Origin: Acidobacteriaceae bacterium
Lineage (GTDB): Bacteria; Acidobacteriota; Terriglobia; Terriglobales; Acidobacteriaceae
Assembly: GCA_003138975.1 (NCBI GenBank)
Contig: PLHQ01000101.1
Coordinates: 1 to 55,909, forward strand
Reading direction: 5' to 3'
DNA length: 55,909 bases
Shown here piece after piece: positions 6,384 through 47,752 of the stretch. Position numbers and translations under genes: made by a program. The first letter of the stretch is position 1. Each line of letters begins with the position of its first letter. The notes beneath the pieces were generated by a model. That model made no database searches, was not told where the DNA came from, and saw only the letters and a list, made by a program, of their open reading frames with translations.

Positions 6384-6530
6384 AAGATAATGCAAGATGC
6401 GACGTCCGGAGGAACCGCAACCTTGACGGCCTTCGGGGTGGCTGTTAGTTTTCCTCCTACCAGTGAATTTCCGGGGGACATCGTTCTGAGTCGGGCAGGG
6501 AAGACGCATCAGTCGGTCGATCCTCATCTC

Positions 6531-9500
6531 ATGAGCGCGAGTCGCCGCCAGTTTCTGGTCCGTTGCTGCCAGGGAGCCTCAGCGGCGATGATTCCGGCAA
6601 GCCTACGCGATTTCGCTTTCTCGTCCACCTATTCTTTTAGTTCTCCGGTATCGCGTTCGTCCGATGGCGAGTTCCATTTGCATCCGCATTATCCCGCCCA
6701 AAGACCGCTGGACGCCACGCTGCTTAAGACACAGGCTGACCTGGACGAATTTGTCACGGAAAAATACCATGACCGGATTGCGGCGATTCTTGCGGAATGG
6801 AGTTCGAATCTGCTTCGGTCTCCGCAGGAAGCACTGGCCATCAGAGAATGTTTTGCAACGGATTTCTCAGGGACATCTCTGCGACCCACTGAGTCGCGGC
6901 CCGTGCGTTCTGATGCGGTCCTGGAAGTTCACCAAAATAAATTCGCGGCTCAACTCATTCTCGGACGAGATTCCTTTCTTCAGGAATTGCAGTTTTCGAT
7001 GAGCATCTTTTCGAAGATCGTGAGCGCGGAATTCCGGGTGACCGGGATCGAAACGACGTCAACATCCCCATCCCAACCTCCCACAACCGTGAACACTCGT
7101 GTGCGTTACGAACTAGTGGGGACTGGGAACGGTTATTACCGCGAGCAGCGCGTAGGGTATTGGGACCTGGAATGGGAAGCCTCGGCTCCTTCATCCGCAC
7201 CACCGGAATTGCGGCTTCGGAGATGGCAAACACTTGATGAGACGCGAAGCCGCTCCCACGCTCCCGTTTTCATCGACATCACTGCTTCGACCCTGGGCCG
7301 CAATCCTTCCTATGCCGCTCAGATGCTTCGAGGGGCCGATTACTGGCGGACTGTGCTCGACGGAGCCTGCGGCATCGATATCTACGGACACAATGGAGTA
7401 TCCGTCGCCGACATCGACAACGACGGGTTCGACGATCTCTACGTTTGCCAACCCGCAGGTCTTCCCAACCGCCTTTATCGAAATCGCGGAGATGGTACGT
7501 TCGAAGACATTACGGAAGCGTCTGGCCTGGGAATCCTGGAAAACACATCATGCGCGCTCTTTGCCGATTTCAATAACGATGGGCGCCAGGATGTGGTCAT
7601 CGTGCGCGCGAACGGGCCGCTTCTGTTCTTGAACGAGGGCGGCGGCAAGTTTCGCCAGAAGCCCGGAGCGTTTCAGTTCGCTAATACTCCGCAGGGAACT
7701 TTCACTGGCGCAGCCGTTGCAGACTATGACTGCGACGGATGGTTAGACATTTATTTTTGTCTCTACGTCTATTACCAGGGCACCGATCAATACAAATATC
7801 CCGTTCCTTATCATGATGCCGAGAACGGTCCTCCCAACTTCATGATGCAGAACAACCGCGACGGAACATTCCGGGACGTTACCGCGGAATCGGGCCTCAA
7901 TCAGAACAACACGCGCTACAGTTTCTGCTGCGCGTGGAGCGATTACAACCAGGACGGATGGCCCGACCTTTATGTCGTGAATGATTTCGGCCGGAAGAAC
8001 CTCTACCGGAACAACGGCGACGGAACCTTTACTGATGTTGCTCCCCATGCTGGAGTGGAGGACATCGGCGCGGGCATGAGCGTCTGCTGGCTCGATTACG
8101 ACGATGATGGCGCCGAGGATATTTACATCGGCGATATGTGGACTGCCGCCGGAGAGCGCGTTTCCACGCAAGAAATTTTCAAGAAAGACGCGCCCGAAGA
8201 TGTTCGGGCTCTGTATCGAAAACACGCGATGGGAAATTCGCTCTTTCGAAACAGCAAGCTTCGCAACGGAGAACCTCGCGACAGTGGCGGTGCCTTCGAG
8301 AATAAAACCGTGTCGGCTGGAGTTGGAATGGGCCGCTGGTCGTGGTCGAGCGACGCGTTTGACTTTGATCATGACGGCTTTGCCGACCTCTACATCGCGA
8401 ATGGTATGGTTTCCGGTGTCTCGCTCCAGGATTTAAATAGTTTCTTTTGGCGCCAAGTGGTTGCAAATTCGCCCGATCGAGCGAAGCCGTCGCGTAATTA
8501 CGAACAGGGATGGAATGCCATCAATGAACTCATTCGAGCTGACGGAACCTGGAGCGGGTTCGAGCGGAACGTTTTCTACGCGAACAACCGGGATGGAACG
8601 TTTTCCGACGTTTCCGGCGCAGTCGGACTGGACTTTTTCGAGGACGGCCGGGCATTTGCCCTTGGCGATTTCGACCAAGACGGCCGGCAGGAAGTGTTCC
8701 TGAAAAACCGTAATGCTCCGCAGTTGCGCCTGCTGAAGAATGTAGTGGAGAATCTGCCGGCGTCGATCGCTTTTCGCCTTCGCGGTACGAAGAGTAATCG
8801 TGACGCCATCGGCGCGGCGGTTACGGTGGAGAGTGAGTCGGGTCGCCGGACTCGCCTGCTTCAAGCCGGATCGGGATTTCTTTCTCAGCACAGCAAGGAA
8901 TTGTTCTTTGGCATGGGACAGGCCAAAGGCCCGGTGCGGGCGTCAATCCGCTGGCCGAGCGGCGTCGTTCAGGATTTTCATGACCTTCCGCCCAACCACA
9001 GGGTCTGGGTGGAGGAATCGTCCGAAGAGCTCCGGGTCGAACCGTTCAAGACGAAAGCGTTATTGCGCGGCCAGTTTGCTGCTGCCCCGCCGCAAGAAGT
9101 CGAACCACTCCCTAACACGGTTGAGACTTGGCTGATCGCGCCAGTAGCCGCGCCGGATCTTGCCCTTCCGGACCTGGCTGGACAAGTACGCACTCTGGCC
9201 GCACTTCGCGGAAAGCCGGCGCTGCTGAATTTCTGGGCGACGCAATCGGCGAATTGTCAGGAAGACCTGAAACTGTTCAACCGGGTCCATGCGCGGTGGG
9301 TGGCTCAAGGTCTTCAACTCCTTACCATGAATGTTGACGACCCTGCGGACCCCGAAAAATTGAGAGCGCTAGCCCGCGAGCAGCTCCTTTCATTTCCTAT
9401 CCTTCGCGGAGCGGATGACGTTGCCGGTGTTTACAACATTCTCTACCGTTACATCTTTGACCGGCATCGCGACCTCGGATTGCCAACATCGTTCCTCATC

Positions 9501-10412
9501 GACACGCGCGGCGACATCGTCAAGATTTATCAGGGGCCGGTGAACCCGGAGCATGTCGAACGAGACTCGCGGAGCATTCCTCAAACCAACGCCGAGCGGT
9601 TGGCGCGAGCACTGCCTTTTCCAGGTGCTACCGAAACGTATGAGTTTGGCCGCAATTATCTCTCCTACGGCTCCGTTTTTTTCCAGCGAGGTTATTTCGA
9701 TCAAGCCGCAGCATCCTTCCAGCTTGCTCTGCGCGACGATCCGTCGAGCGCTGAGGCCTGCTATGGCCTGGGAAGCGCTCAGCTGAACCAGCAAAAGACC
9801 GTCGAGGCACGGCAGAGCTTTGAACACGCCGTCAAACTTCGCGCCAGCTACCCCGATACTCTGGCAAACGCCTGGAACAACCTCGGTCTTCTCGCGACGC
9901 GGGAAGGTCGGACGGACCAGGCGATACTGTGCTTTCAGGAGGCGTTGCGTTCAAGTCCAGATCATCTGATTGCCCTCAGCAATCTGGGCAACGCATATCG
10001 CCTGCAGAAAAATTGGGGTGAGGCTCGCAAGACTTTTGAACGGGCTCTTGAAGCCAGCCCCAGCGATCCCGAGGCGAACTATGGCTTGGGGATGGTCTTT
10101 GCCCAGGCCGACGATCCCGAGCGTGCTTACGAGTATCTGCAGAAGGCGTTGAAGTCTCGTCCCGCTTACCCGGAAGCGTTGAACAACCTTGGAATACTTT
10201 ATTTACGAACCCAGCGACGAGACGAGGCAGTCGCGAGCTTCGAAGAGTGCATCCGACTCGCGCCCGCCTTTGACCAGTCTTATCTGAACTTGGCCAGAGT
10301 CTATGCTGTCGAAGGCGCGCCGGAGAAAGCTCGGACCATTCTGCTCGAACTTCTGAAGCAACATCCGGATCACGCGCAGGCGCAAAGCATGCTGGCGCAA
10401 GTTCCGCAATAA
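6531..10412 (+). CDS. exported FG-GAP / ASPIC / thioredoxin-like / TPR mosaic protein (CRTAC1-like)
   Basis: The start is set at ATG 6531 because it opens MSASRRQFLVRCCQGASA, a twin-arginine-type signal; the longer frame has none. The 1293 residues fall into four blocks. Residues ~283-730 hold at least seven FG-GAP/VCBS calcium-loop repeats (DIDNDGFDD, DFNNDGRQD, DYNQDGWPD, DFDHDGFAD). Residues ~745-830 form an ASPIC/UnbV domain (RWPSGVVQDF, LPPNHRVWVEE). Residues ~876-1003 are a TlpA-like thioredoxin fold with cis-Pro LPTSFLID. Residues ~1036-1290 are TPR repeats. The thioredoxin CxxC is replaced by SANC, so it cannot form the usual active disulfide. CRTAC1-like multidomain proteins are frequent in Acidobacteriota; the function is unknown, probably protein or carbohydrate binding at the cell surface. 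Confidence 0.85.
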   Translation: MSASRRQFLVRCCQGASAAMIPASLRDFAFSSTYSFSSPVSRSSDGEFHLHPHYPAQRPLDATLLKTQADLDEFVTEKYHDRIAAILAEWSSNLLRSPQEALAIRECFATDFSGTSLRPTESRPVRSDAVLEVHQNKFAAQLILGRDSFLQELQFSMSIFSKIVSAEFRVTGIETTSTSPSQPPTTVNTRVRYELVGTGNGYYREQRVGYWDLEWEASAPSSAPPELRLRRWQTLDETRSRSHAPVFIDITASTLGRNPSYAAQMLRGADYWRTVLDGACGIDIYGHNGVSVADIDNDGFDDLYVCQPAGLPNRLYRNRGDGTFEDITEASGLGILENTSCALFADFNNDGRQDVVIVRANGPLLFLNEGGGKFRQKPGAFQFANTPQGTFTGAAVADYDCDGWLDIYFCLYVYYQGTDQYKYPVPYHDAENGPPNFMMQNNRDGTFRDVTAESGLNQNNTRYSFCCAWSDYNQDGWPDLYVVNDFGRKNLYRNNGDGTFTDVAPHAGVEDIGAGMSVCWLDYDDDGAEDIYIGDMWTAAGERVSTQEIFKKDAPEDVRALYRKHAMGNSLFRNSKLRNGEPRDSGGAFENKTVSAGVGMGRWSWSSDAFDFDHDGFADLYIANGMVSGVSLQDLNSFFWRQVVANSPDRAKPSRNYEQGWNAINELIRADGTWSGFERNVFYANNRDGTFSDVSGAVGLDFFEDGRAFALGDFDQDGRQEVFLKNRNAPQLRLLKNVVENLPASIAFRLRGTKSNRDAIGAAVTVESESGRRTRLLQAGSGFLSQHSKELFFGMGQAKGPVRASIRWPSGVVQDFHDLPPNHRVWVEESSEELRVEPFKTKALLRGQFAAAPPQEVEPLPNTVETWLIAPVAAPDLALPDLAGQVRTLAALRGKPALLNFWATQSANCQEDLKLFNRVHARWVAQGLQLLTMNVDDPADPEKLRALAREQLLSFPILRGADDVAGVYNILYRYIFDRHRDLGLPTSFLIDTRGDIVKIYQGPVNPEHVERDSRSIPQTNAERLARALPFPGATETYEFGRNYLSYGSVFFQRGYFDQAAASFQLALRDDPSSAEACYGLGSAQLNQQKTVEARQSFEHAVKLRASYPDTLANAWNNLGLLATREGRTDQAILCFQEALRSSPDHLIALSNLGNAYRLQKNWGEARKTFERALEASPSDPEANYGLGMVFAQADDPERAYEYLQKALKSRPAYPEALNNLGILYLRTQRRDEAVASFEECIRLAPAFDQSYLNLARVYAVEGAPEKARTILLELLKQHPDHAQAQSMLAQVPQ

Positions 10413-10435: not shown

Positions 10436-11515
10436 CTAATTTCTTGGGGTGGGTGCGGTCAGCAGATTCACAAACATCTTGTAAAACCTATCGAGGTCGA
10501 GATCATCCTGCACCTCGACCGGCTGTAACTCGACCTTAGGCTTTTCGCGATCCGTCCAGCTCAGCGTGTTGCCGTAGTTAGCGCCGTGGTCCAGGTCCAC
10601 ATCCATAAAGAGCGTTTCTTTCATGGTGATCAGGCTCGGATCTAGCCACGCCGCCGCCGCCAGTTCATCCCACAGATAATTGTAGTTACCCCGCAAGCGC
10701 GCATACTTGCCGATGTACCTCGCCGCCGGAGAGTCGCTCGCCTTGATGCGGTTGATCAAGTCAGCGGTAAATCTCGTCTTCACTGAAATATCCACCGGAG
10801 TACAAACAATTTTCTTCCACGGCGCCACGAGCACAATGTGAGCCGCCTCCGGATCAAACCAGAGGTTAAATTCGTGGGTTGGAGAATTCACAAACTCTGG
10901 ATCATCAGTCCGCGGATTGAGGCTGGCGCCCATAAAGACCAGTTCCTTGGCCATGCCCGCAATTGTGGGATCGATGGAAATGGCGAGCGCGAGGTTAGTC
11001 ATCGGGCCGCCCTCGTAAATAGTGATCTGGTTCGGAAACTTGTGAACCATGCGTATGAGAAAATGAGCAGCGTCCTCATCGGACGGCTTAGTCGTGGGTT
11101 TGCCTTCCGGCATGTCTCCCAACTGGTCGGGTGCGTGATAAAACCGCGGAGTCCAGGCGCCCAGCCAAGCTACGCTGCCGTATTGTTGCTCCCATTGCTC
11201 GGTATCCTGCTTACCCCTCACCAACGGATATTCCGCCCCGGGCACGACGGGAATGTCCGTTCGCCCAATGAGTTCGAGCATGCGCAAAGTGTGCGCCAAT
11301 TCGTCGTTGAGCCATTGATCGCCGGTCACTACCGTGATACCCAAGACCTCGGTCTGTGGCGACTGGATCAAGAGCAACATCGACTGCTGATCCGTTCCCG
11401 CAGGCCCGGCCGCGTCCTGATCAATGATGATCTTCCGCTTCTCCTGGGCCCAGCTGGTGAGGCATACCATCAGCAATAACACTGTCGTCAGATAAGGTAT
11501 TCGGTAAGAGTGCAT
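10436..11515 (-). CDS. secreted nucleoside hydrolase family protein, altered metal motif (paralogue 1)
   Basis: Inosine/uridine-preferring nucleoside hydrolases cleave the N-glycosidic bond to free base and ribose. This 359-residue protein has a signal peptide (YLTTVLLLMVCLTSWAQ). It carries family landmarks GGPMTNLALAI, VFMGAS, NLWFDPEAA and a terminal-lobe WDELAAAAWLDP. The N-terminal calcium motif, canonically D-T-D-P-G-x-D-D, reads D32-Q-D34 followed by a longer GPAGTD42-Q43, so the last Asp is lost and a three-residue insertion is present. It shares most of its sequence with the gene at 13960-15039, pointing to duplication. AGAGG stands before the ATG. It converges on the mosaic protein gene (23-base gap). 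Catalysis is likely but not certain. Confidence 0.82.
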   Translation of the reverse strand: MHSYRIPYLTTVLLLMVCLTSWAQEKRKIIIDQDAAGPAGTDQQSMLLLIQSPQTEVLGITVVTGDQWLNDELAHTLRMLELIGRTDIPVVPGAEYPLVRGKQDTEQWEQQYGSVAWLGAWTPRFYHAPDQLGDMPEGKPTTKPSDEDAAHFLIRMVHKFPNQITIYEGGPMTNLALAISIDPTIAGMAKELVFMGASLNPRTDDPEFVNSPTHEFNLWFDPEAAHIVLVAPWKKIVCTPVDISVKTRFTADLINRIKASDSPAARYIGKYARLRGNYNYLWDELAAAAWLDPSLITMKETLFMDVDLDHGANYGNTLSWTDREKPKVELQPVEVQDDLDLDRFYKMFVNLLTAPTPRN

Positions 11516-11602
11516 CGATAGCCTCTGCGTTTCGAAGGTAATAAATTTACTTACGACGGCGTCATGACGTTAAACGTACAGATTGTACCGGCTTCAAGTC
11601 CA

Positions 11603-34818: not shown

Positions 34819-35493
34819 TCAAACGCGGCTTGCGAAGTTTAAGTTGGCAAAGAGCGCCTGCAATTTTTCTTCATCCAGCTTTCCTTCGCGGCGAACGCCA
34901 GTGCAGATATCGAGTCCGAATGGACCAACTTGCTGCACTGCGTCCCGTACATTCTCCGGTGTCAGTCCACCGGCCAGAAAGAGTGGAATGTCGATCTGTT
35001 CTCGAATTTGACGACTCAACGTCCAATTATGCCTCCGCCCAGTGCCGCCCAGTTCTTTAATTGTGAGCTTAGGTTTCCCAGAGTCGAGCAGAATCGCGTC
35101 GACATGCGCTGCCACCGCGATCGCTTCCTCAATAGATTCCTCCCCGCTCACGTGCACGACCTGCACAATCGAGATCCCCAGCAGCGCCCGGCGCAGATCT
35201 TCGTAAGAACCTTGAATCAAGCGATCCACAATCTGGATTGTATTGGTGCGGCAGCGGCGCTGCTGGGCGATGATGCTTTCCGCATCTTGCTGTGCGGTGA
35301 GCAGGAACGTTCCGATCGGTGGAGGGACTGAGGCGGCGATTTCCGCAATCTGTTCTTCTGAGATCACACCGGGTCCGCTGGGCATGGCGGAAACCAGTCC
35401 AACTGCGGCGGCGCCGTGCTCAATGGCCATCCTGGCCTCGTCACGGCTTGAGATACAGCAGATTTTGACCCGCGGCCGCTTGCTTGCCCGCAT
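34819..35493 (-). CDS. phosphoribosylanthranilate isomerase-like TIM-barrel protein
   Basis: TrpF family by fold: RVKICCISSRDEARMAIEHG (catalytic Cys region), DAILLDSG (catalytic Asp), GGTGRRHNWTLS, PLFLAGGLTPENVRDA and GLDICTGVRREGKLDEEKLQ follow the TrpF order over 224 residues. Odd points: the usual KICG-I/M-T is KICC-I-S, and the stretch normally reading GFVF...SPR is GLVSAMPSGPG. No other trp gene is nearby; it lies with nucleoside genes upstream of cdd. It may be a true isomerase for tryptophan synthesis or a paralogue acting on another phosphoribosyl compound. The ATG at 35493 is preferred to a TTG 42 bases upstream. Confidence 0.75.
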   Translation of the reverse strand: MRASKRPRVKICCISSRDEARMAIEHGAAAVGLVSAMPSGPGVISEEQIAEIAASVPPPIGTFLLTAQQDAESIIAQQRRCRTNTIQIVDRLIQGSYEDLRRALLGISIVQVVHVSGEESIEEAIAVAAHVDAILLDSGKPKLTIKELGGTGRRHNWTLSRQIREQIDIPLFLAGGLTPENVRDAVQQVGPFGLDICTGVRREGKLDEEKLQALFANLNFASRV

Positions 35494-35667
35494 CCTGAGA
35501 TTATGCGACGTCCGGTGGACCAGGGGCCAGCCCAATCGGAATTGCTTTTGTTCTCGCTCGGAGCTAGCATATCCCCATTATTTTTCTCCGCCCGGCATCT
35601 TTAGCTTCGGCTTCACAACAGGCAAGTTCTTGCTTGATCTTTCGTTCTTGATTTTAAGGAGGATGTT

Positions 35668-39832: not shown

Positions 39833-41104
39833 CTAGTCAATCTCGGCCGTGAACCGTTCAGCAAACCTGAAAACATCCTGGCTGGAGTTGTACAGGGGCA
39901 CGGGCGCCACGCGGAACGTATCAGGCTCTCTCCAATCACCCAGGATCCCTTCCCCAGCCAGCCGTTCACATAATGCCTGCCCGTGGCGCAGAATTCGGAT
40001 TGAAAGTTGTGACCCGCGCCGCTCTTTTTCTTGCGGAGTGACAATTGAGAAGCTCGAAGAAATTCTCTGATTCAGCAAGAACTCCAAATAACTGGTTAAC
40101 AAAACACTCTTCCTCCGCAAGCGTTCGATGCTCGCTTCGTGGAAGATATCCATCGATGCTCGCAGGACAGCCATACTTACGATCGACGGATTGCTCAATT
40201 GCCAGCCATCAGCACCGGTCATCGCCCGAAAGCTCGGTCCCATCTGAAAACGTGACGCTTCGTCGTGCCCCCACCATCCCGCGAACCGTGGCAAATCCCA
40301 AGAGCGGGCGTGCCGCTCGTGAACAAAACAACCGGCAACGCATCCCGGCCCCCCATTCAGATATTTGTAGCTGCACCAAACGGCGAAGTCCGGATCCCAC
40401 TCATGCAGTCTCAAATGCAAGTTGCCAGCCGCATGGGCCAGATCGAAACCGACCACGCAGCCCCGCGCATGACCAGCCCGCGTTATCCCCGCCATATCGA
40501 ATGCTTGACCCGTCGCATAATTCACTCCTCCCAGCAAGATCAGTGCGATCTCATCCCCTGAACGCTCAATCAAAGACTCAATTTGCTCATCGCGAAGACA
40601 AGACTCGCCTGGGAGCGGAGTTAACTCGATCAGTGAAGTTGCAGGATCGAAGCCGTGGAAATGAATTTGCGACTTCACTGCGTATTGATCGGAAGGGAAC
40701 GCACCCCGCTCTATAAGGATTTTGTGTCGTCCCGGCGTAGGACGGTAAAACGACACCATCATCAGGTGCAGATTCACCGTGAGTGAATTCATCACCACAA
40801 CCTCGACGGGCTTCGCCCCTACCAGCGCTGCTGTCTGCTCTGTAAGCAGCCTGTGGTAGGGCATCCACGGATTTCTTGCGCGGAAATGAGCCTCTACGCC
40901 CAGTTGCGCCCAATCTTTAAGTTCCTGCTGAATATATGCGGCCGCAGCTTTGGGCTGCAGCCCGAGCGAGTGGCCACACAGGTATACGCACTTACCGCCC
41001 GCATGTTTAGGCAACAAGAACCGCTCGCGATAGTCCCTGAGAGGATCGCATTCATCCATCGCAACGGCAAAATCCTTGCCCGATTGAAACTGGACGTCGG
41101 TCAC
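39833..41104 (-). CDS. kynU: kynureninase
   Basis: PLP enzyme that splits 3-hydroxykynurenine (or kynurenine) to 3-hydroxyanthranilate (or anthranilate) and alanine. GTG 41104 is used since its GTGA overlaps the stop of the monooxygenase gene; a TTG 30 bases earlier is the alternative. The 423 residues show DPLRDYRERFLLPK, CGHSLGLQPK, MNSLTVNLHLMM, VGFDLAHAAGNL (PLP Asp), the Schiff-base Lys in WCSYKYLNGGPG, and GWWGHDEASRFQM, all family hallmarks. Last catalytic gene of the kynurenine operon. Confidence 0.95.
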   Translation of the reverse strand: MTDVQFQSGKDFAVAMDECDPLRDYRERFLLPKHAGGKCVYLCGHSLGLQPKAAAAYIQQELKDWAQLGVEAHFRARNPWMPYHRLLTEQTAALVGAKPVEVVVMNSLTVNLHLMMVSFYRPTPGRHKILIERGAFPSDQYAVKSQIHFHGFDPATSLIELTPLPGESCLRDEQIESLIERSGDEIALILLGGVNYATGQAFDMAGITRAGHARGCVVGFDLAHAAGNLHLRLHEWDPDFAVWCSYKYLNGGPGCVAGCFVHERHARSWDLPRFAGWWGHDEASRFQMGPSFRAMTGADGWQLSNPSIVSMAVLRASMDIFHEASIERLRRKSVLLTSYLEFLLNQRISSSFSIVTPQEKERRGSQLSIRILRHGQALCERLAGEGILGDWREPDTFRVAPVPLYNSSQDVFRFAERFTAEID

Positions 41105-42468
41105 GGCCGCAGCTCCAAAGACGTGAGATCGCAACGAATCAACTTCTCCGCCAGATCCCAGTCGAGATCCTCCACGCGATCAATAGCTTCGCAAAGTTGA
41201 GCCAGCATCCGGTCCTGAACCGCGCCGCGCGTCAGGGCAACGGAGTAGGGAATGCGATGAAACGTCACCATCGCATACTTCGGCACGAAGAGTTGAGGAT
41301 ATTTTGCTTCCAGCGCCAATTCCACTTTCTTTCGAAACAAAAACCGCGCGTCCGCGACTCGATCGCGCATCTCCGTAAAATTTTCAATTGCCATGTCCGC
41401 GATTGCGTCGGTATTGACCTTACGCTCCTTCTCGAACTCAGCGAACACTCGCGGCCAGTCTGCTCCGTGCCGGTCGAGCAACTCGACCAGACAGGTACAG
41501 TCCTCAAGTCCGCAGTTCAAACCCTGCCCGAAGAAAGGAACGATGGCATGAGCAGCGTCCCCCAGAAGCAGAGATCCTCCTTCCAGATGCCAGGGGGAGC
41601 ACTTGATCGTGACCATTGCGCCCGTGGGGTTAGTAAAGTAGTTGTCCGCCAATTCCGGCATCAGCCGAAGAGCGTCAGGGAATCGATCCTCAAAGAACCG
41701 AACCACATTCGAACGCGTGCTCACGCTCGCGAAACTGGCTGCCCCCTCAAACGGAAGAAACAGAATGCAAGCGAAAGTGCCGTCGATATTGGGCAACGCG
41801 ATCAGCATATGATTGCCCCTCGGCCAGATGTGAAGAGCGTTCGTCTCCAGCAGATGCTTGCCGTTAGCCCCAGCAGGAATCGTCAACTCCTTATAGCCGT
41901 AATCGAGGTACTGTTGGGAAAAGTTGAAACGGTTTAGCTTGAGCATCTCTGTCCGAATCGCTGATGCGGAACCGTCGCAGCCGATCACAACGCCGGTGTC
42001 TCGGTTCACCACTCTACTAGTGTTTTCATCGCGGAATCGAACAGCGCCGGTCTTCAGGTCGTATCCCATGCAGCGTTGGTTGAAGTGAATAGCCACACTC
42101 TGTTCCTCAGCGGCATTCATGAGAGCGACGTTCAGCTCCCCGCGCGAAATCGAGTTGATGACCTCCGTTTCATCTTTCCCATAAGGCTGAAAAGTGAGTT
42201 CACCGGCAATCGAATGCATCATCCGGCCCTTCATCGGGACAATGATGCTTCGCATCCGCTCCCACAGCCCGGCCTGCTGCAATGCGTGAATGCCACGAGT
42301 CGAGAGAGCGAGATTGATCGAGCGGCCCGCACTCGTGCGCACCCTCCGCATGTCCGGACGCCGCTCGTAGAGTTCCACCGCGAATCCGCGTTGCCTCAGA
42401 AGAATGGCGAGAAGGGGACCAGTCAAGCCGGCGCCGATCAGCGTCACTTTCTCAGGGCACGATTTCAT
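41101..42468 (-). CDS. kmo: kynurenine 3-monooxygenase
   Basis: FAD- and NADPH-dependent hydroxylation of kynurenine to 3-hydroxykynurenine. The 455-residue product carries the FAD fold GAGLTGPLLAILLRQRG, RSINLALSTRGIHAL (family signature), VIGCDGSASAIR, and the second FAD motif GDAAHAIVPFFGQGLNCGLE. Bacterial and animal KMO share the FGQGLNxGLED signature seen here. A TTG at 42513 adds 15 residues and lies 4 bases after a TAAGGC near the previous stop; ATG 42468 is preferred because KVTLIGAGL then sits in the usual position. It overlaps kynU by four bases. Confidence 0.94.
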   Translation of the reverse strand: MKSCPEKVTLIGAGLTGPLLAILLRQRGFAVELYERRPDMRRVRTSAGRSINLALSTRGIHALQQAGLWERMRSIIVPMKGRMMHSIAGELTFQPYGKDETEVINSISRGELNVALMNAAEEQSVAIHFNQRCMGYDLKTGAVRFRDENTSRVVNRDTGVVIGCDGSASAIRTEMLKLNRFNFSQQYLDYGYKELTIPAGANGKHLLETNALHIWPRGNHMLIALPNIDGTFACILFLPFEGAASFASVSTRSNVVRFFEDRFPDALRLMPELADNYFTNPTGAMVTIKCSPWHLEGGSLLLGDAAHAIVPFFGQGLNCGLEDCTCLVELLDRHGADWPRVFAEFEKERKVNTDAIADMAIENFTEMRDRVADARFLFRKKVELALEAKYPQLFVPKYAMVTFHRIPYSVALTRGAVQDRMLAQLCEAIDRVEDLDWDLAEKLIRCDLTSLELRP

Positions 42469-42517
42469 ACCAGATGAATACAGGATCTTCGATGAACAAG
42501 CGAAATGAGGCAACGCC

Positions 42518-44380
42518 TTACTCGGTCAGCAACGTCCTCGCCTCCCACAATTCCGGGAAGAACTTCTTGTCGAGTGTCAGCTTCAAATAAGACGCTCCCG
42601 CACTTCCCCCAGTCCCCATGCGGACGCCGATGATGCGCTCGACCAGTTGAATGTGGCGCAACCGCCAACTCACCACCAGTTCGTCGAATTCTGTGAGCCG
42701 CTCGCACACATCGATCCAGTCGCGATGATGGTGCTCATCCTTATAAAGTGCGTGCACCGCCCGGGCACGGGCTTCGAATCGTTCCCGTTCGGTCGAGCCC
42801 TCGTGGGCGGGCGGCAGCATGCCCATCGCCTGTAATGCCCCAAAGAACACGTCGCGCAGCGAGGGCTCCTCCAACCGGCGCTTCAGACTTGCGTAAGCCT
42901 CCGGAGTGGGTCTGTGATAGCGGAGCATTTTCTCGTCCTTCAAGCCGCACAGGAATTCAATCTCTCGAAATTGCTCGGACTGAAATCCGCTGGCTGGCTC
43001 CAGCAGACCACGAAACGCAAGAAAATGCGTAGGCAGCATCGTTTCCAGAATCGTGAACTGCTCCACCAGCACCCGCGTGATCTCCGTACACCGGCGGAGC
43101 AGCCGCGCTGCTTCGTAAACTTCGTCATGCGATTGTGACGCGGCGCCAGCTCTTCGCAAGTTTGCGACCACGGCATCAAGATCGTGCAGCAATTCCTTGA
43201 ACCACAGTTCGTAGGTCTGATGCACAAGGATGAATAACAGCTCGTCGTGATGGGGTGGCGAAGACTGTGGCTGCTGCAACTCGAGCAATTCCGGAACTCT
43301 TAGATACGAGCTGTACGTCAACTGCCCCGGCTCGGGCGCAATCGGCGAAGAGCCGAGAACTCTCTTATCCGCGGCCTCTGGCGACTCGGCTTCAAGTTTC
43401 AGGAACCGCGTTGCATTCCCGCTCAGCAATTTAGCCTTGGTATGCTGCGGTAAATTGCTTTGTCGAATGAGCGAGCCCACGCGTTCTTCGCCCAGAGGAA
43501 AAGGATAGTCCGAGCCGAGCATCACCTGATCCGCTCCCATTGTTCCCACTAGGAATTGCAGCGCGCGCTGGTCGAACACGGCAGAGTCTGTGTAGAAGCG
43601 GTTGAGATAGTGGCTCGGCGGGTGTTGGCAGTCACCACGCGCGACCGGCTGATGATGCCAGGCATTTTCCAGCCGCCCGAGCAAGAATGCGAAACTTCCG
43701 CCGCCATGCGCGAAACAAATTCGCAGTGAGCTCGGCAGCCGGTCCAATGCGCCACTCAAAATCAGTGCCACCACCGACAGCTGTGTCTCCGCCGGCATGC
43801 CCACCGTCCACGGCATCATGTATTTCGGCATCCGGTCCCGCGCAAACATTTCCCATGGATGGACGAGCACCGCAGCGCCCTCATCGGCGCAGTGATGCAA
43901 GAAAGTGACGACCCCGGGATCATCGAGATTCTTACTTCCTATGTGATTACCAATTTGCACACCTACATGTCCGGCCTGCATGCACCGGCTGAGCTCCTTA
44001 CAAGCAGAGTCAACATCCTGTAGCGGGACTTGGCAAAAAGACTTCAACCTGCTTTTTCCTCGGCTGCAAAGTTCAAGCGCCGCGTCGTTGAACAATTGCG
44101 CACAGTCAAGCGCGTGTTCCACCGGACGCTCATACGCAAACAGCACCGGCGTGGCAGAGATAATCTGCAGGTCAACACCATCCCGATCCATTTCCTGCAG
44201 CCGGACGTCCGGATCCCAACATGCCGAGCAAATATGGCGGAAGAATCGATCTCCCACCATAATGTCCGCCTTCCCCGGCTCGGTATGTTTGATCCAAGGC
44301 CAGTTCGGCGTGCTATAGCGCGCCGCGAGGTCAGGCCATGAGCTTGGGAAAAAGTGATTATGAATGTCGATGACTTGCAT
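42518..44380 (-). CDS. ACMS decarboxylase-tryptophan 2,3-dioxygenase fusion
   Basis: One 620-residue chain holds two enzymes of tryptophan breakdown. Residues 1-~330 are 2-amino-3-carboxymuconate-6-semialdehyde decarboxylase, with zinc ligands H7, H9 (IDIHNHFF), H174 (VHPWEM) and D291 (LGSDYPFPLG) and proton-transfer H225 (AHGGGSF). Each position is within about three residues of the Pseudomonas enzyme. A ~22-residue linker (EAESPEAADKRVLGS) follows. Residues ~353-620 are tryptophan 2,3-dioxygenase: F383 and H387 (LLFILVHQTYELWFKELL), R457 (FLAFRGLL), haem-axial H576 (SWRLRHIQLVERIIG) and GTGGSAGASYL. Both halves look full-length and catalytically complete with no frameshift. Stand-alone genes are the norm. 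It starts 3 bases after nbaC. Confidence 0.95.
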   Translation of the reverse strand: MQVIDIHNHFFPSSWPDLAARYSTPNWPWIKHTEPGKADIMVGDRFFRHICSACWDPDVRLQEMDRDGVDLQIISATPVLFAYERPVEHALDCAQLFNDAALELCSRGKSRLKSFCQVPLQDVDSACKELSRCMQAGHVGVQIGNHIGSKNLDDPGVVTFLHHCADEGAAVLVHPWEMFARDRMPKYMMPWTVGMPAETQLSVVALILSGALDRLPSSLRICFAHGGGSFAFLLGRLENAWHHQPVARGDCQHPPSHYLNRFYTDSAVFDQRALQFLVGTMGADQVMLGSDYPFPLGEERVGSLIRQSNLPQHTKAKLLSGNATRFLKLEAESPEAADKRVLGSSPIAPEPGQLTYSSYLRVPELLELQQPQSSPPHHDELLFILVHQTYELWFKELLHDLDAVVANLRRAGAASQSHDEVYEAARLLRRCTEITRVLVEQFTILETMLPTHFLAFRGLLEPASGFQSEQFREIEFLCGLKDEKMLRYHRPTPEAYASLKRRLEEPSLRDVFFGALQAMGMLPPAHEGSTERERFEARARAVHALYKDEHHHRDWIDVCERLTEFDELVVSWRLRHIQLVERIIGVRMGTGGSAGASYLKLTLDKKFFPELWEARTLLTE

Positions 44381-44383
44381 TCT

Positions 44384-44911
44384 TTACTTACCCGGATGAA
44401 TCCTGCCGCAATGCTTGCATTTGCGTCGACTCTCGTTGCTGTAGAACTGTTCAAATAGAGGCGGCAAATCTTTGACAATGCTCTTCAGCTTTAGTTCCGC
44501 CCGATAAATCAGCTGATGGCAGTTCGGGCAGTACCATTCGAATGCGTCCAGTGATCCCTCCGGGCGCGGCACCTCGATGACGACTCCGATCGTCTCTGCC
44601 GCCCGCTGTGGTGAATGGCGCATGTGCTTCGGCAAAAGAAATATCTCGCCTTCTTTGACCGGTATTTCCAGCGGCGGCTTTCCGGGCGTTTCCATGATGC
44701 GGAGAACAATCGTGCCCTTTAGTTGGTAGAAGAACTCCTCTGTGGGATCGTCGTGATAGTCGCGCCGCTGATTTGGCCCGCCCACCACCGTCACCATCAT
44801 TTCGCCATCTTCCCAAACTTGAGCGTTTCCGACCGGAGGCTTGAGCTTCTCTTTGTTCTCGTCGATCCACGACTGAAAGTTGAACGCTTTCAGAGTTTTT
44901 ATAGATGCCAT
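44384..44911 (-). CDS. nbaC: 3-hydroxyanthranilate 3,4-dioxygenase
   Basis: Non-haem Fe(II) enzyme that opens the 3-hydroxyanthranilate ring to ACMS, the substrate of the decarboxylase encoded next. The 175 residues are a cupin: GGPNQRRDYHDDPTEEFFYQ provides Fe ligands H53 and E59, and PKHMRHSPQRAAE provides H99. The C-terminal rubredoxin-like iron site of bacterial enzymes is intact at C128-C131 (YCPNCH) and C165-C168 (KCKHCG). Positions agree with Ralstonia HAO shifted by two to four residues. Only 3 bases separate it from the fusion gene. Confidence 0.95.
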   Translation of the reverse strand: MASIKTLKAFNFQSWIDENKEKLKPPVGNAQVWEDGEMMVTVVGGPNQRRDYHDDPTEEFFYQLKGTIVLRIMETPGKPPLEIPVKEGEIFLLPKHMRHSPQRAAETIGVVIEVPRPEGSLDAFEWYCPNCHQLIYRAELKLKSIVKDLPPLFEQFYSNESRRKCKHCGRIHPGK

Positions 44912-44922
44912 TGTGTCTCCTA

Positions 44923-45342
44923 TTACTGTGGCTTGTAAGCCATGGCCTTGATCTCGATCAGCAGGTGCGGATGCGGCAACTGGTGCACCGCCACGGTCGT
45001 TCTTGCTGGACCGTCGTATCCGAAGAACTCGCCATACACCTCGTTATAGCCGGCGAAATCATTCATGTTCACGAGATACGCGGAAATTTCGACCACGTCT
45101 TGCAGCCCTGCTCCCGCGCTCTGCAAAATGTCGCGAATGTTTTCGATCACCGCGCGCGTTTGCTCGCGTATGTCAAGCCTCGTGGCCCCGAGTGGATCGA
45201 CTTCGGCGCCTGCAATCGTGTTGTCGGAACGGCGTGCGCTTGCCCCGGAGACGAACAAGAAGTCACCCGCCCGTTTAACGTGCGGATACTTGCCGCGCGG
45301 CGTCGCTTTCCCTTTGACGACTTTGCTCTCCGTCGTGCTCAT
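44923..45342 (-). CDS. RidA-family 2-aminomuconate deaminase
   Basis: In bacterial kynurenine and 2-nitrobenzoate pathways this YjgF/RidA-type protein deaminates 2-aminomuconate to 4-oxalocrotonate. ATG 45342 (139 aa) is used; the longer frame adds a low-complexity N-terminus. Visible are [20 protein letters not shown], the trimer-interface region [20 protein letters not shown] and the binding-pocket Arg in [15 protein letters not shown]. [18 protein letters not shown] is characteristic of the deaminase subgroup rather than general RidA. It sits between the semialdehyde dehydrogenase and dioxygenase genes, 11 bases from the latter. Confidence 0.88.
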
Positions 45343-45396
45343 CTTGTCCCGGTCGGCCGATCTCGCCGCGGCTGCATTCGCGTGCAACTGTAAAGC

Positions 45397-46851
45397 TCAG
45401 AGCCGAATGCAAATATTATTCAGCTCCGAATAGAAATTGAGTGAATGCATCCCGCCTTCGCGGCCAATGCCAGAAAGTCCAGCACCCCCAAATGGCGTTC
45501 GCAGATCGCGCAAGAACCAGCAATTCACCCACGTGATGCCCACATTCATTTGCTGCGCTACACGATGACCGCGCTTCAAATCGCTGGTCCAGATCGAAGC
45601 CGCGAGGCCGTATTTGGTATCGTTGGCCATAGAGACGGCTTCCTCTTCAGAATCGAACGGCGCGATGTGACACACGGGACCAAAGATTTCTTCCTTCACG
45701 CAGCGAGCCGTCTCAGGCAGTCCAGTATAGATGGTTGGCTGCACGTAGAAGCCGTGATCCCGATCGTCGCCAAATTTCGGAACTCCTCCGCCAGTAACCA
45801 CCGTCGCCCCTTCTTCCCGCGCCAATCGGAAGTAGGAGAGCACTTTGTCGCGATGTTGCGCAGAAATCAGCGGTCCCAGGTTCGTCTCTTCGTCGTTCGG
45901 CCAGCCCGAATGCAGGCGCTCCGCTTTCCGTTTCAGCGCCTCCACAAATGCGCTGAAAATTCTCCGTTCCACATATGCTCGCTCTGCACACAAGCAGACT
46001 TGCCCCGTATTGAGGAACACCGCGTCGGATAATCCGCTGATGGTCTCTTCAAAATTGCAATCCGCGAATACGATTGCCGCGTTCTTTCCACCCAGTTCAA
46101 ACGAAATTGGTTTCACCGTGGGCGCGACCGCTTTCATGATGGCAGCTCCAGTTTTTGATTCTCCCGTAAATGTGATCGCGTCCACGTCAGGATGTTGAGT
46201 GAGAAACTCTCCCGCAGACCCCGGCCCAAATCCATGAACCACGTTATAAACGCCATGCGGAATTCCGGCGTCCTGCATCGCCTCGGAAAGAAGCGTTGCC
46301 GTCGCCGGAGTTTCTTCCGAAGGCTTGACGACCACGGTATTCCCGCAAGCTAGCGCGGGCGCGACTTTCCAGGTGAGCAGCAGGAGCGGCAAATTCCACG
46401 GCGTGACAATACCGACGACTCCCAGCGGTTTGCGCACCGCATAGTTCAGGGCATTTGCCCCGTCGAGTGTTTCCGTCTGAAACGATTCCAGTCCGGCCAT
46501 CTTCACTAAGTCGGCAAAGACGCGGAAATTTGCCGCCGCGCGAGGGATGTCGAGATTTGAAGCCAGGGAAACTGGCTTTCCCGTATCAGCGACTTCGGCT
46601 TGAACGAAGCAATCGAATCGCTTCTCGATCGCATCCGCAACCTTGTGCAATCGCGCCGCCCGCTCGCGGACTGCGAGCCGTCCCCACTCCCCATGCAACG
46701 CCAGCCGAGCGGCATGCACGGCCCCACCCACTTGAGCTTCGTCGGCTGCCGTCACTTTCGCAATCGTCGTCCCGTCCGCCGGATTTATATCCGCGAACTC
46801 TTGTTTCCCGGGCACGAAACTGCCGTCAATGTAATTTTGAATTAACTTCAC
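45397..46851 (-). CDS. 2-aminomuconate 6-semialdehyde dehydrogenase
   Basis: Oxidises 2-aminomuconate semialdehyde, the ACMS decarboxylase product, to 2-aminomuconate. GTG 46851 is used: it is preceded by GGGG at good spacing and lies just downstream of a promoter, while the longer frame runs back into rmlD. The 484 residues contain GIVTPWNLPLLLLTWKVAPA, FTGESKTG, FELGGKNAAIVF with the base Glu, the catalytic Cys in LNTGQVCLCAERAYV, EEIFGPVCHIAPF and FGGAGLSGIGREGG. NTGQVCLCAER is typical of hydroxymuconic/aminomuconic semialdehyde dehydrogenases. First gene of the kynurenine operon. Confidence 0.9.
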   Translation of the reverse strand: MKLIQNYIDGSFVPGKQEFADINPADGTTIAKVTAADEAQVGGAVHAARLALHGEWGRLAVRERAARLHKVADAIEKRFDCFVQAEVADTGKPVSLASNLDIPRAAANFRVFADLVKMAGLESFQTETLDGANALNYAVRKPLGVVGIVTPWNLPLLLLTWKVAPALACGNTVVVKPSEETPATATLLSEAMQDAGIPHGVYNVVHGFGPGSAGEFLTQHPDVDAITFTGESKTGAAIMKAVAPTVKPISFELGGKNAAIVFADCNFEETISGLSDAVFLNTGQVCLCAERAYVERRIFSAFVEALKRKAERLHSGWPNDEETNLGPLISAQHRDKVLSYFRLAREEGATVVTGGGVPKFGDDRDHGFYVQPTIYTGLPETARCVKEEIFGPVCHIAPFDSEEEAVSMANDTKYGLAASIWTSDLKRGHRVAQQMNVGITWVNCWFLRDLRTPFGGAGLSGIGREGGMHSLNFYSELNNICIRL

Positions 46852-46874
46852 GAGATCCCCGGCGGGCTTTCGCA

Positions 46875-46903
46875 ATCGTAGCAGCCAGGCGGAAACGAGG
46901 CAA
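46875..46903 (-). promoter_or_regulatory. sigma-70 promoter of the kynurenine operon
   Basis: On the minus strand TTGCCT (46903-46898), a 17-base spacer and TACGAT (46880-46875) lie in the 64-base gap between rmlD and the dehydrogenase gene. Transcription would start near 46868, about 17 bases before the GTG, so the operon need not depend on rml transcription. Confidence 0.5.
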
Positions 46904-46915
46904 TGTGAGTGGCAG

Positions 46916-47752
46916 TTAACCGCGTCTTTGCTGCAGGTACCGCTGCAACGCGTCTCGCCAGGAAGGCATTTCAATTCCTAGAGCTCGCATACGAGAAGGT
47001 GACAATACGGAATACGCCGGTCGCGGCGCAGGCCGCGCCATCTGCGCACTGCTCACCGGCCGAACACTTGTCGTAAGCCCCGCGCTCCGGACGATCTCTT
47101 GCGCAAACTCAAACCAGGTGCACTCTCCCGCGTTGGTGACGTGCACGATCCCGTTTGCGTTCTGCCTGCACAACTGAATGAGCCCCCGTGCGAGGTCGAT
47201 CACGTATGTGGGACAGCCACGCTGGTCGTTGACCACATCAAGCGCCGGACGACTTGCCGCGAGCTTCAAGATCGTGTCGGGGAAACATGTTCCACCGACA
47301 CCAAACAGCCACGACGTCCTCACGATGCAGCAACCCGGCATCCACTCGAGAAGTTTGATCTCCGCCTCAGCCTTGGTTCGTCCGTATATACTCTGCGGAT
47401 TCCGGGAGTCGCCGGTCTCATAGGGAGTGGTCTTCTTTCCATCGAATACATAATCGGAACTTAAGAAGAGAAGCCGCGCTCCAGCTTCCCGCCCCGCAAC
47501 CGCGACATTCACCGCACCATCGCGGTTCACCGCGAAAGCCAAATCCGGATTGCTCTCACAGCCATCCACATCCGTGTATGCTGCGGACAACACGACCCAT
47601 TCCGGATTTGTCTCCCGCACCAGTTGCTGCACGCGCTTCGCGTCGCGGATATCTGCATCTCGCGAGCCGAGTCCAATGACCGCATCCTTGCTCCACTCAC
47701 GCATGAGCGCCTGGCCGAGCAGTCCGGACGCTCCAAAGATTGTGACTCTCAT
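46916..47752 (-). CDS. rmlD: dTDP-4-dehydrorhamnose reductase
   Basis: Last step of dTDP-L-rhamnose synthesis, an NAD(P)H reductase. The 278 residues are a short-chain-type fold: GASGLLGQALMREW for the dinucleotide, SAAYTDVDGCESNPD, SSDYVFDG, the catalytic YGRTKAEAE (Tyr-x-x-x-Lys), RTSWLFG and DQRGCPTYVIDLA. Fourth gene of rmlBACD; 18 bases follow rmlC. Confidence 0.94.
   Translation of the reverse strand: MRVTIFGASGLLGQALMREWSKDAVIGLGSRDADIRDAKRVQQLVRETNPEWVVLSAAYTDVDGCESNPDLAFAVNRDGAVNVAVAGREAGARLLFLSSDYVFDGKKTTPYETGDSRNPQSIYGRTKAEAEIKLLEWMPGCCIVRTSWLFGVGGTCFPDTILKLAASRPALDVVNDQRGCPTYVIDLARGLIQLCRQNANGIVHVTNAGECTWFEFAQEIVRSAGLTTSVRPVSSAQMARPAPRPAYSVLSPSRMRALGIEMPSWRDALQRYLQQRRG

Follow-up and report, generated by a model that had tools for sequence, protein, structure and literature searches.

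Within the window (the whole stretch of DNA that was analysed, 55,909 nucleotides), a kynurenine operon was found on the minus strand with the gene order AMSDH-RidA-HAO-[ACMSD::TDO]-KMO-KYNU, in which ACMS decarboxylase (ACMSD) and tryptophan 2,3-dioxygenase (TDO) are encoded by a single open reading frame (Table 1). As a catabolic operon it is complete for KMO, KYNU, HAO, ACMSD, AMSDH and 2-aminomuconate deaminase, with 3 bp between the HAO stop and the fusion start and 4 bp between the fusion stop and the first possible KMO start. The TIGR03216 model matched by AMSDH carries the name 2-hydroxymuconic semialdehyde dehydrogenase, and as the AMSDH domain begins at approximately residue 43, the true start of this gene probably lies near position 46850. 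For KMO, no NCBIfam model scored above its own cut-off among the best 25 of 56 matches. Upstream of the operon lies a dTDP-rhamnose gene set (RmlD, RmlC, RmlA, RmlB-type) and downstream a GGDEF protein, an arrangement shared by 10–11 and by 8, respectively, of the 16 loci L059–L074, which also carry both halves of the fusion. An Rfam scan of the window gave no RNA element at gathering score.

Table 1. Genes of the kynurenine operon and parts of the ACMSD::TDO fusion within the window
Feature	Position	Strand	Evidence and remarks
AMSDH, 2-aminomuconate 6-semialdehyde dehydrogenase	45397..46974	minus	PDB 7bzv/4i1w; TIGR03216 above cut-off
RidA-family 2-aminomuconate deaminase	44923..45387	minus	best PDB match 6izh, E 2.8e-58; ORF start TTG (start tentative)
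HAO, 3-hydroxyanthranilate 3,4-dioxygenase	44384..44911	minus	NF009763 and TIGR03037 above cut-off
ACMSD::TDO fusion ORF	42518..44380	minus	620 aa, stop included in coordinates; ATG start 3 bp past HAO stop
ACMS decarboxylase (ACMSD) domain, residues 1–330	43391..44380	minus	Pfam Amidohydro_2; PDB 2hbv; Foldseek 4epk/2hbv
Linker, residues 331–352	43325..43390	minus	pLDDT <50, variable length, distal part resembling a TDO N-terminus
Tryptophan 2,3-dioxygenase (TDO) domain, residues 353–620	42521..43324	minus	Pfam Trp_dioxygenase; PDB 2nw7; Foldseek
KMO, kynurenine 3-monooxygenase	41101..42513	minus	PDB 6lkd, E 3.3e-101; start tentative
KYNU, kynureninase	39833..41134	minus	TIGR01814 above cut-off; Pfam KYNU_C

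An earlier note, made from the letters of the sequence, had placed a complete ACMSD and a complete TDO in one frame at positions 42518–44380. This frame is present on the minus strand, the corresponding frame of the plus strand containing several stops, and Pfam and PDB matches agree with both domain identities. Pfam Amidohydro_2 covers residues 4–329 (114.5 bits against a gathering score of 26.4) and Trp_dioxygenase begins at residue 352 (188.3 bits against 34.9), while in a PDB sequence search Pseudomonas ACMSD 2hbv matched residues 4–329 (E 1.1e-120) and Xanthomonas TDO 2nw7 residues 351–617 (E 2.7e-55). The fusion scored below the curated cut-off of the bacterial TDO equivalog model TIGR03036 (237.7 against 390.7 bits), and its TDO half is therefore classed in the Pfam TDO family, outside the TIGR03036 equivalog. 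No second TDO or ACMSD gene was detected in the source genome (G000) at E≤0.001, the sole match being the fusion itself.

The catalytic residues named in the earlier note were all recovered by mapping the fusion onto the PDB chains 2hbv and 2nw7, with R48, R236, Y356, Y359 and L360 as additions. In the numbering of Pseudomonas fluorescens ACMSD, the residues taken here to be the metal ligands (H9, H11, H177 and D294) and the catalytic histidine (H228) correspond to H7, H9, H174, D291 and H225 of the fusion, and R51/R239 correspond to R48/R236. The title of PDB 4ifk calls R51 and R239* essential. P. fluorescens ACMSD (2hbv, 4epk, 4ifk), with approximately 52% structure-aligned identity, thus shares its metal ligands, catalytic histidine and substrate arginines with the fusion, but is a separate enzyme where the chain studied here continues into TDO. 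Within the TDO half, F383, H387, R457, H576 and GTGGS (589–593) are present, and Y356, Y359 and L360 correspond to Y24/Y27/L28 of the N-terminal arm of Xanthomonas TDO; the sites of a TDO are presumed to be the haem histidine, F51/H55/R117, GTGG and this substrate arm. The structure-aligned identity to Xanthomonas campestris TDO (2nw7, 7p46) is 37–39%, with the haem histidine, F51/H55/R117/T254 and the Y24/Y27/L28 arm retained; it differs in that the N-terminus of the TDO is attached to ACMSD in the fusion and in Y113, replaced by F in the fusion and in most of the standalone TDOs compared. When repeats of the same genomes are counted, the key TDO residues were kept in 54 of 54 fused rows and those of ACMSD were complete in 48 of 51. 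The position after GTGG was S in 46 of the 54 TDO rows, T in five and unaligned in three.

An AlphaFold2 model built on a 41-sequence alignment, used in place of an earlier poor model from 29 close sequences (mean pLDDT 69), had a mean pLDDT of 83 with two mostly confident domains. Values below 50 were confined to no single part, being found in the linker (332–349) and in two stretches of the TDO (462–466 and 587–592), and the pTM of 0.56 leaves the relative orientation of the domains undefined. Foldseek matched the model to ACMSD structures (4epk/2hbv) over the whole domain with a TMt of approximately 0.95 and to TDO structures at 0.75–0.82. Both domains of the fusion are probably active. The three incomplete ACMSD rows all belong to one genome, G463 (L074), in which the metal ligand H174 is replaced by N although the fusion persists, and in which ACMSD activity may have been lost. 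It should also be noted that HAO, RidA and AMSDH were not found within 6 kb either side of this fusion, where a kynureninase-like gene of 28% identity lies on the opposite strand. The TDO half of L074 (6004–7902) has a 25-codon insertion in common with that of L179 (G672), and in both loci KMO follows the fusion, with no close KYNU beyond KMO in the stretches examined.

Among 37 genomes of the genus, the records of which are Candidatus Sulfotelmatobacter or Acidobacteriaceae MAGs with several titles naming palsa or bog, the fusion forms one uninterrupted frame (residues 1 to 619 or 620) in 29, is in pieces in three and is absent from five. Separate TDO and ACMSD genes in its place, the outcome named beforehand as speaking against the fusion, were found in none of the 37. 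An assembly or sequencing artefact deleting a stop and a start might be suggested by the origin of these sequences from MAGs and by the broken-looking frames of two genomes (G015 and G022, apparently frameshifted; the third, G032, is interrupted by two contig ends). However, the same open frame recurs in 29 genomes from separate assemblies, including the near-complete G014, G019 and G035, with differing linkers, and such independent orthologues rule the artefact out, leaving its probability next to nil. The frame is confirmed as a real and conserved joint of ACMSD and TDO. HAO was found in 38 of 45 genus genomes, the seven without it being G001, G006, G011, G020, G030, G456 and G459, and all five genomes lacking the fusion also lack HAO, so that the kynurenine pathway seems to have been gained or lost as a whole within the genus.

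The linker could be measured between fixed anchors in 31 of 35 sequences examined, including that of the window, where it is 26 residues long; across these 31 it ranges over 20–33 residues in nine lengths and contains no in-frame stop. For 21 pairs of orthologues compared with the window, the median pN/pS was 0.13 in ACMSD (1–328) and 0.10 in TDO, as against 0.75 in the linker, ratios which are rough as synonymous sites are near saturation, and by this measure purifying selection is seen to act on both domains with the linker drifting. The linker of the window ends in SSPIAPEPGQLTY, which was compared with QSPIKPESDQLTY of the standalone TDO N-terminus, standalone TDOs beginning with M..SPIKPESDQLTY. 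This resemblance makes the distal half of the linker look like what was once a TDO N-terminus.

A long linker that is predicted to be disordered would be suited to cleavage, and it could be argued that proteolysis there, or internal initiation, frees a separate TDO so that two proteins arise from one frame. An in-frame GTG is located six codons ahead of the TDO LTY motif in 5 of the 31 sequences, once with GGAG upstream (L022), and TTG codons at fixed leucines within the TDO are common. Yet no junction start codon in the 31 linkers combined a conserved position with a ribosome-binding-like sequence, as judged by five simple Shine-Dalgarno-like strings within 15 bases upstream, and 6 of the 31 have no start codon near the junction at all. 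An internal TDO start was rejected on this basis, and the production of a separate TDO by either route is considered very improbable, translation as one chain being what the uninterrupted frames point to.

Beyond the genus, the fusion was also found in lineages with other record titles (L072, L073 and L074). The order Bryobacterales, to which G462 belongs, has it in 4 of 250 genomes, complete in G462, G463 and G677 and cut by a contig end in G672. The fused operon has the same gene order in the Bryobacterales records L073 and L178, which together with the patchy occurrence would suggest that the whole operon was transferred between orders. Across 396 genomes of its own phylum, the fusion was seen among the matches listed only in the two sampled genus members (G000 and G014). 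One half or both were matched at E≤1e-40 in at least 122 of the 396, and at least 12 of these (G079, G093, G151, G178, G196, G204, G289, G321, G329, G377, G385 and G415) carry separate ACMSD and TDO genes within approximately 4 kb on one strand with ACMSD first. Scanning 84,980 species genomes by pattern gave, among 80 of 534 related loci, at least 17 with both halves (L059–L074 and L076), all with record titles of Acidobacteriota type. At E≤1e-60, a threshold which fusions of weaker similarity would escape, none was seen among the genomes sampled from three further phyla, those of G464 (Burkholderiales record; 398 genomes, 10 with any match at all), G469 (Hymenobacter record; 385 genomes, 52 with a match) and G468 (Phycisphaerales record; 382 genomes, 55 with a match). 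Twelve long-open-frame matches from these three phyla were inspected, none of which had both halves in one frame and eleven of which represent one half only. In one genome of the phylum of G468, G1794 (L182), TDO and ACMSD are separate genes on one strand with a gap of approximately 0.7 kb, and TDO precedes ACMSD, opposite to the order in the fusion.

To place the two halves, their closest non-fused relatives were compared. For ACMSD, these are among the matches listed those of Pseudomonadota (L077–L090), with 60–66% identity, and in many of these loci ACMSD is preceded by AMSDH, RidA and HAO, ordered as in the fusion operon and, in some, with the genes directly adjacent; ACMSDs of other Acidobacteriota (L034–L058) have 41–48% identity. 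In a quick tree built without bootstrap, the fused ACMSDs grouped as a single clade (SH-aLRT 95) nested within a larger one that holds Pseudomonadota along with three Actinomycetota rows (SH-aLRT 100). For TDO, the closest non-fused relatives among the matches listed are standalone enzymes with 71–79% identity from Acidobacteriota, a Deltaproteobacteria-titled MAG and a Nitrospira-titled MAG, most of them near a kynureninase-like gene. In L089, L091, L092, L095 and L033, the latter gene is 25–26% identical to the kynureninase of the window. The first TDO tree placed the standalone L033 beside two Bryobacterales fusions (support 93/89), and the fused TDOs formed one group in 3% of bootstrap trees of this first set and in 42% of those of a smaller set, for which forcing them into one clade was not rejected (AU p 0.558). 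A single origin of the joint is the simplest reading, allowed by the TDO half without being proven from it. No significant ACMSD relic was found upstream of the nearest standalone TDOs in seven stretches, the only significant ACMSD-like match near standalone TDOs being one of 24% in L091, downstream of its TDO. A match in L089 and L091 from query residue 325 was considered as an ACMSD remnant and rejected as an alignment across a variable stretch.

These comparisons indicate that the halves differ in ancestry, the ACMSD appearing to derive from a Pseudomonadota-type AMSDH-RidA-HAO-ACMSD block and the TDO from a clade of standalone TDOs. Pseudomonadota lower-pathway blocks (such as L077, L105 and L110) have AMSDH, RidA, HAO and ACMSD in the same relative order as the fusion operon, but ACMSD is separate there, other DNA often lies between AMSDH and RidA, and it is in the fusion operon that TDO, KMO and KYNU follow. 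It is concluded that ACMSD, which closes an imported lower block, was apparently joined end-to-end to TDO, which opens an upper block of TDO-KMO-KYNU, and that with the loss of the ACMSD stop and the TDO start the old TDO N-terminus would have become half of the linker. The fusion sits where two operon modules with distinct histories meet, and this accounts for the joining of enzymes whose steps do not follow one another.

In the kynurenine pathway, the product of TDO, N-formylkynurenine, reaches the ACMSD step by way of kynurenine formamidase (KFase), KMO, KYNU and HAO. The two enzymes are thus non-consecutive, as the earlier note had said, and since four enzymes lie between them direct channelling is out. 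Known TDOs are tetramers. According to the available text of PMC10143591, the ACMSD monomer is inactive because substrate arginines are supplied by the neighbouring subunit, the dimer is active, specific activity is greater in tetramers and larger assemblies, and the control of the ACMS split is described as unexplained. With a tetrameric TDO, and an ACMSD that has no activity as a single subunit and works better as a tetramer, it is expected that the TDO core should keep the ACMSD oligomer together. The preferred reading, which is considered reasonably probable, is that of one bifunctional chain of approximately 70 kDa, formed once by end-to-end fusion of ACMSD and TDO, with a 1:1 ratio of the two and a TDO core that gathers the ACMSD protomers. 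Its most likely consequence would be that the ratio of the entry enzyme TDO to ACMSD, which diverts ACMS from quinolinate, is fixed at 1:1; by the preferred mechanism, the TDO tetramer core would hold the attached ACMSD protomers together and thereby favour the active ACMSD oligomer.

The main rival is a nearly neutral compaction of the operon, in which adjacent genes lost a stop codon and both enzymes went on working with the joint having no function of its own. This accounts for the origin of the fusion equally well and, as an account of the whole, is regarded as possible though somewhat doubtful. The very tight spacing of the operon and the little constrained linker are in keeping with it, as is the position of the joint between two modules that differ in ancestry, an origin that needs no benefit; the loss of the ACMSD metal ligand in G463, where HAO, RidA and AMSDH are missing from the surroundings, points the same way. 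That the genes have been re-split in none of the 37 genus genomes speaks against neutrality, as does the recurrence of the fused operon order in Bryobacterales (L073 and L178), but both are weak points, the former because re-splitting is rare anyway. As to the earlier interpretation, its domain identities, intact catalytic residues and non-consecutive steps stand, and the equal dosage that it suggested may hold. It had missed the module boundary, and with an origin at such a boundary selection for dosage is unnecessary to account for how the fusion arose. Under the preferred reading of a bifunctional chain, the fixed ratio and the gathering of protomers would be consequences of the joint.

No gene for KFase was found within the operon, and the cyclase-type KFase (PF04199) was not found in the source genome in a search that was positive in 8 of 14 control genomes. 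Beside the operon of L072 lies an alpha/beta hydrolase (10620–11543, minus strand) that matches the kynurenine formamidase 4e11 (E 2.3e-18), with a lipase and a putative esterase outscoring 4e11; no homologue of it was found at 1e-15 in 45 genus genomes, in a search run without a positive control. A KFase of the alpha/beta-hydrolase type may yet be encoded in the source genome. NadA (PF02445) was likewise not found in the source genome, which is 98.6% complete, and was positive in 12 of 14 control genomes, so that the aspartate route to quinolinate has possibly been lost in this one incomplete genome. The available text of PMC10702441 deals with riboswitches located ahead of nadA in species of Acidobacterium, and its glossary has abbreviations for Koribacter and Edaphobacter; NadA would therefore be expected in relatives. 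Should the loss of NadA be confirmed, quinolinate would come from ACMS made by HAO and ACMSD would compete with NAD synthesis, and the fusion may lie at an NAD branch point of the source genome. A more far-reaching proposal, which is considered rather unlikely, is that NadA is lost, the kynurenine route supplies quinolinate and the fusion is a built-in flux divider, in which the leak of ACMS to NAD is set by protein architecture and not by gene regulation. If this were true, each TDO unit would carry one ACMSD unit kept in an active oligomer by the TDO tetramer.

Both enzymes were already known, as was this kind of operon, but no published report of an ACMSD-TDO single chain was found in the open-licence PMC literature, covered mainly by titles and abstract starts, and as far as searched the combination is unreported there. 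This agrees with the earlier note, which knew the two enzymes only as separate proteins. The transient HAO-ACMSD-AMSDH complex described in the available text of PMC10143591 also concerns what controls the partition of ACMS towards ACMSD or quinolinate, but it is a proposed, non-covalent association of consecutive enzymes, whereas the fusion ties ACMSD covalently to the entry enzyme, several steps away from it in the pathway. Exported chorismate mutase-cyclohexadienyl dehydratase fusions (available text of PMC10520331) are a comparably rare bacterial joining of two enzymes of aromatic amino acid metabolism, but of consecutive steps, unlike those of TDO and ACMSD. A parallel to the lower-pathway blocks of Pseudomonadota is the 2-nitrobenzoate onb cluster of Cupriavidus ST-14, by its description in the available text of PMC5817917. 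Most fusions unite steps that follow one another or subunits that interact. ACMSD::TDO combines the opening step of a pathway with a late one, is conserved throughout a genus and present in a second order, and has halves that appear to come from different lineages. It illustrates how an enzyme can arise from operon modules placed end to end. As ACMSD activity depends on its oligomeric state, tied here to a partner with tetrameric known relatives, the fusion is also a natural construct for asking how catabolism and quinolinate formation share out ACMS, and, found in uncultured soil bacteria, it could help to test how tryptophan is divided between food and vitamin synthesis.

A number of other features were seen in the window and in related loci. 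The kynureninase of L064 (9237–10597) is present as two overlapping ORFs, probably due to a frameshift of that assembly. A phosphoribosylanthranilate isomerase of tryptophan synthesis is encoded at 34819–35535 of the window (minus strand), approximately 4 kb from the operon for tryptophan degradation. Positions 10436–34366 represent a nucleoside-use region with four inosine-uridine nucleoside hydrolases (10436, 13960, 28503 and 30573), together with a Na+-dependent nucleoside transporter, a pyrimidine phosphorylase, a DeoC-type aldolase, an aldehyde dehydrogenase, a PfkB kinase and a cytosine/purine permease. At 6390–10412, a protein of 1340 residues combines FG-GAP repeats, UnbV/ASPIC, an AhpC/TSA-type domain and TPR repeats.
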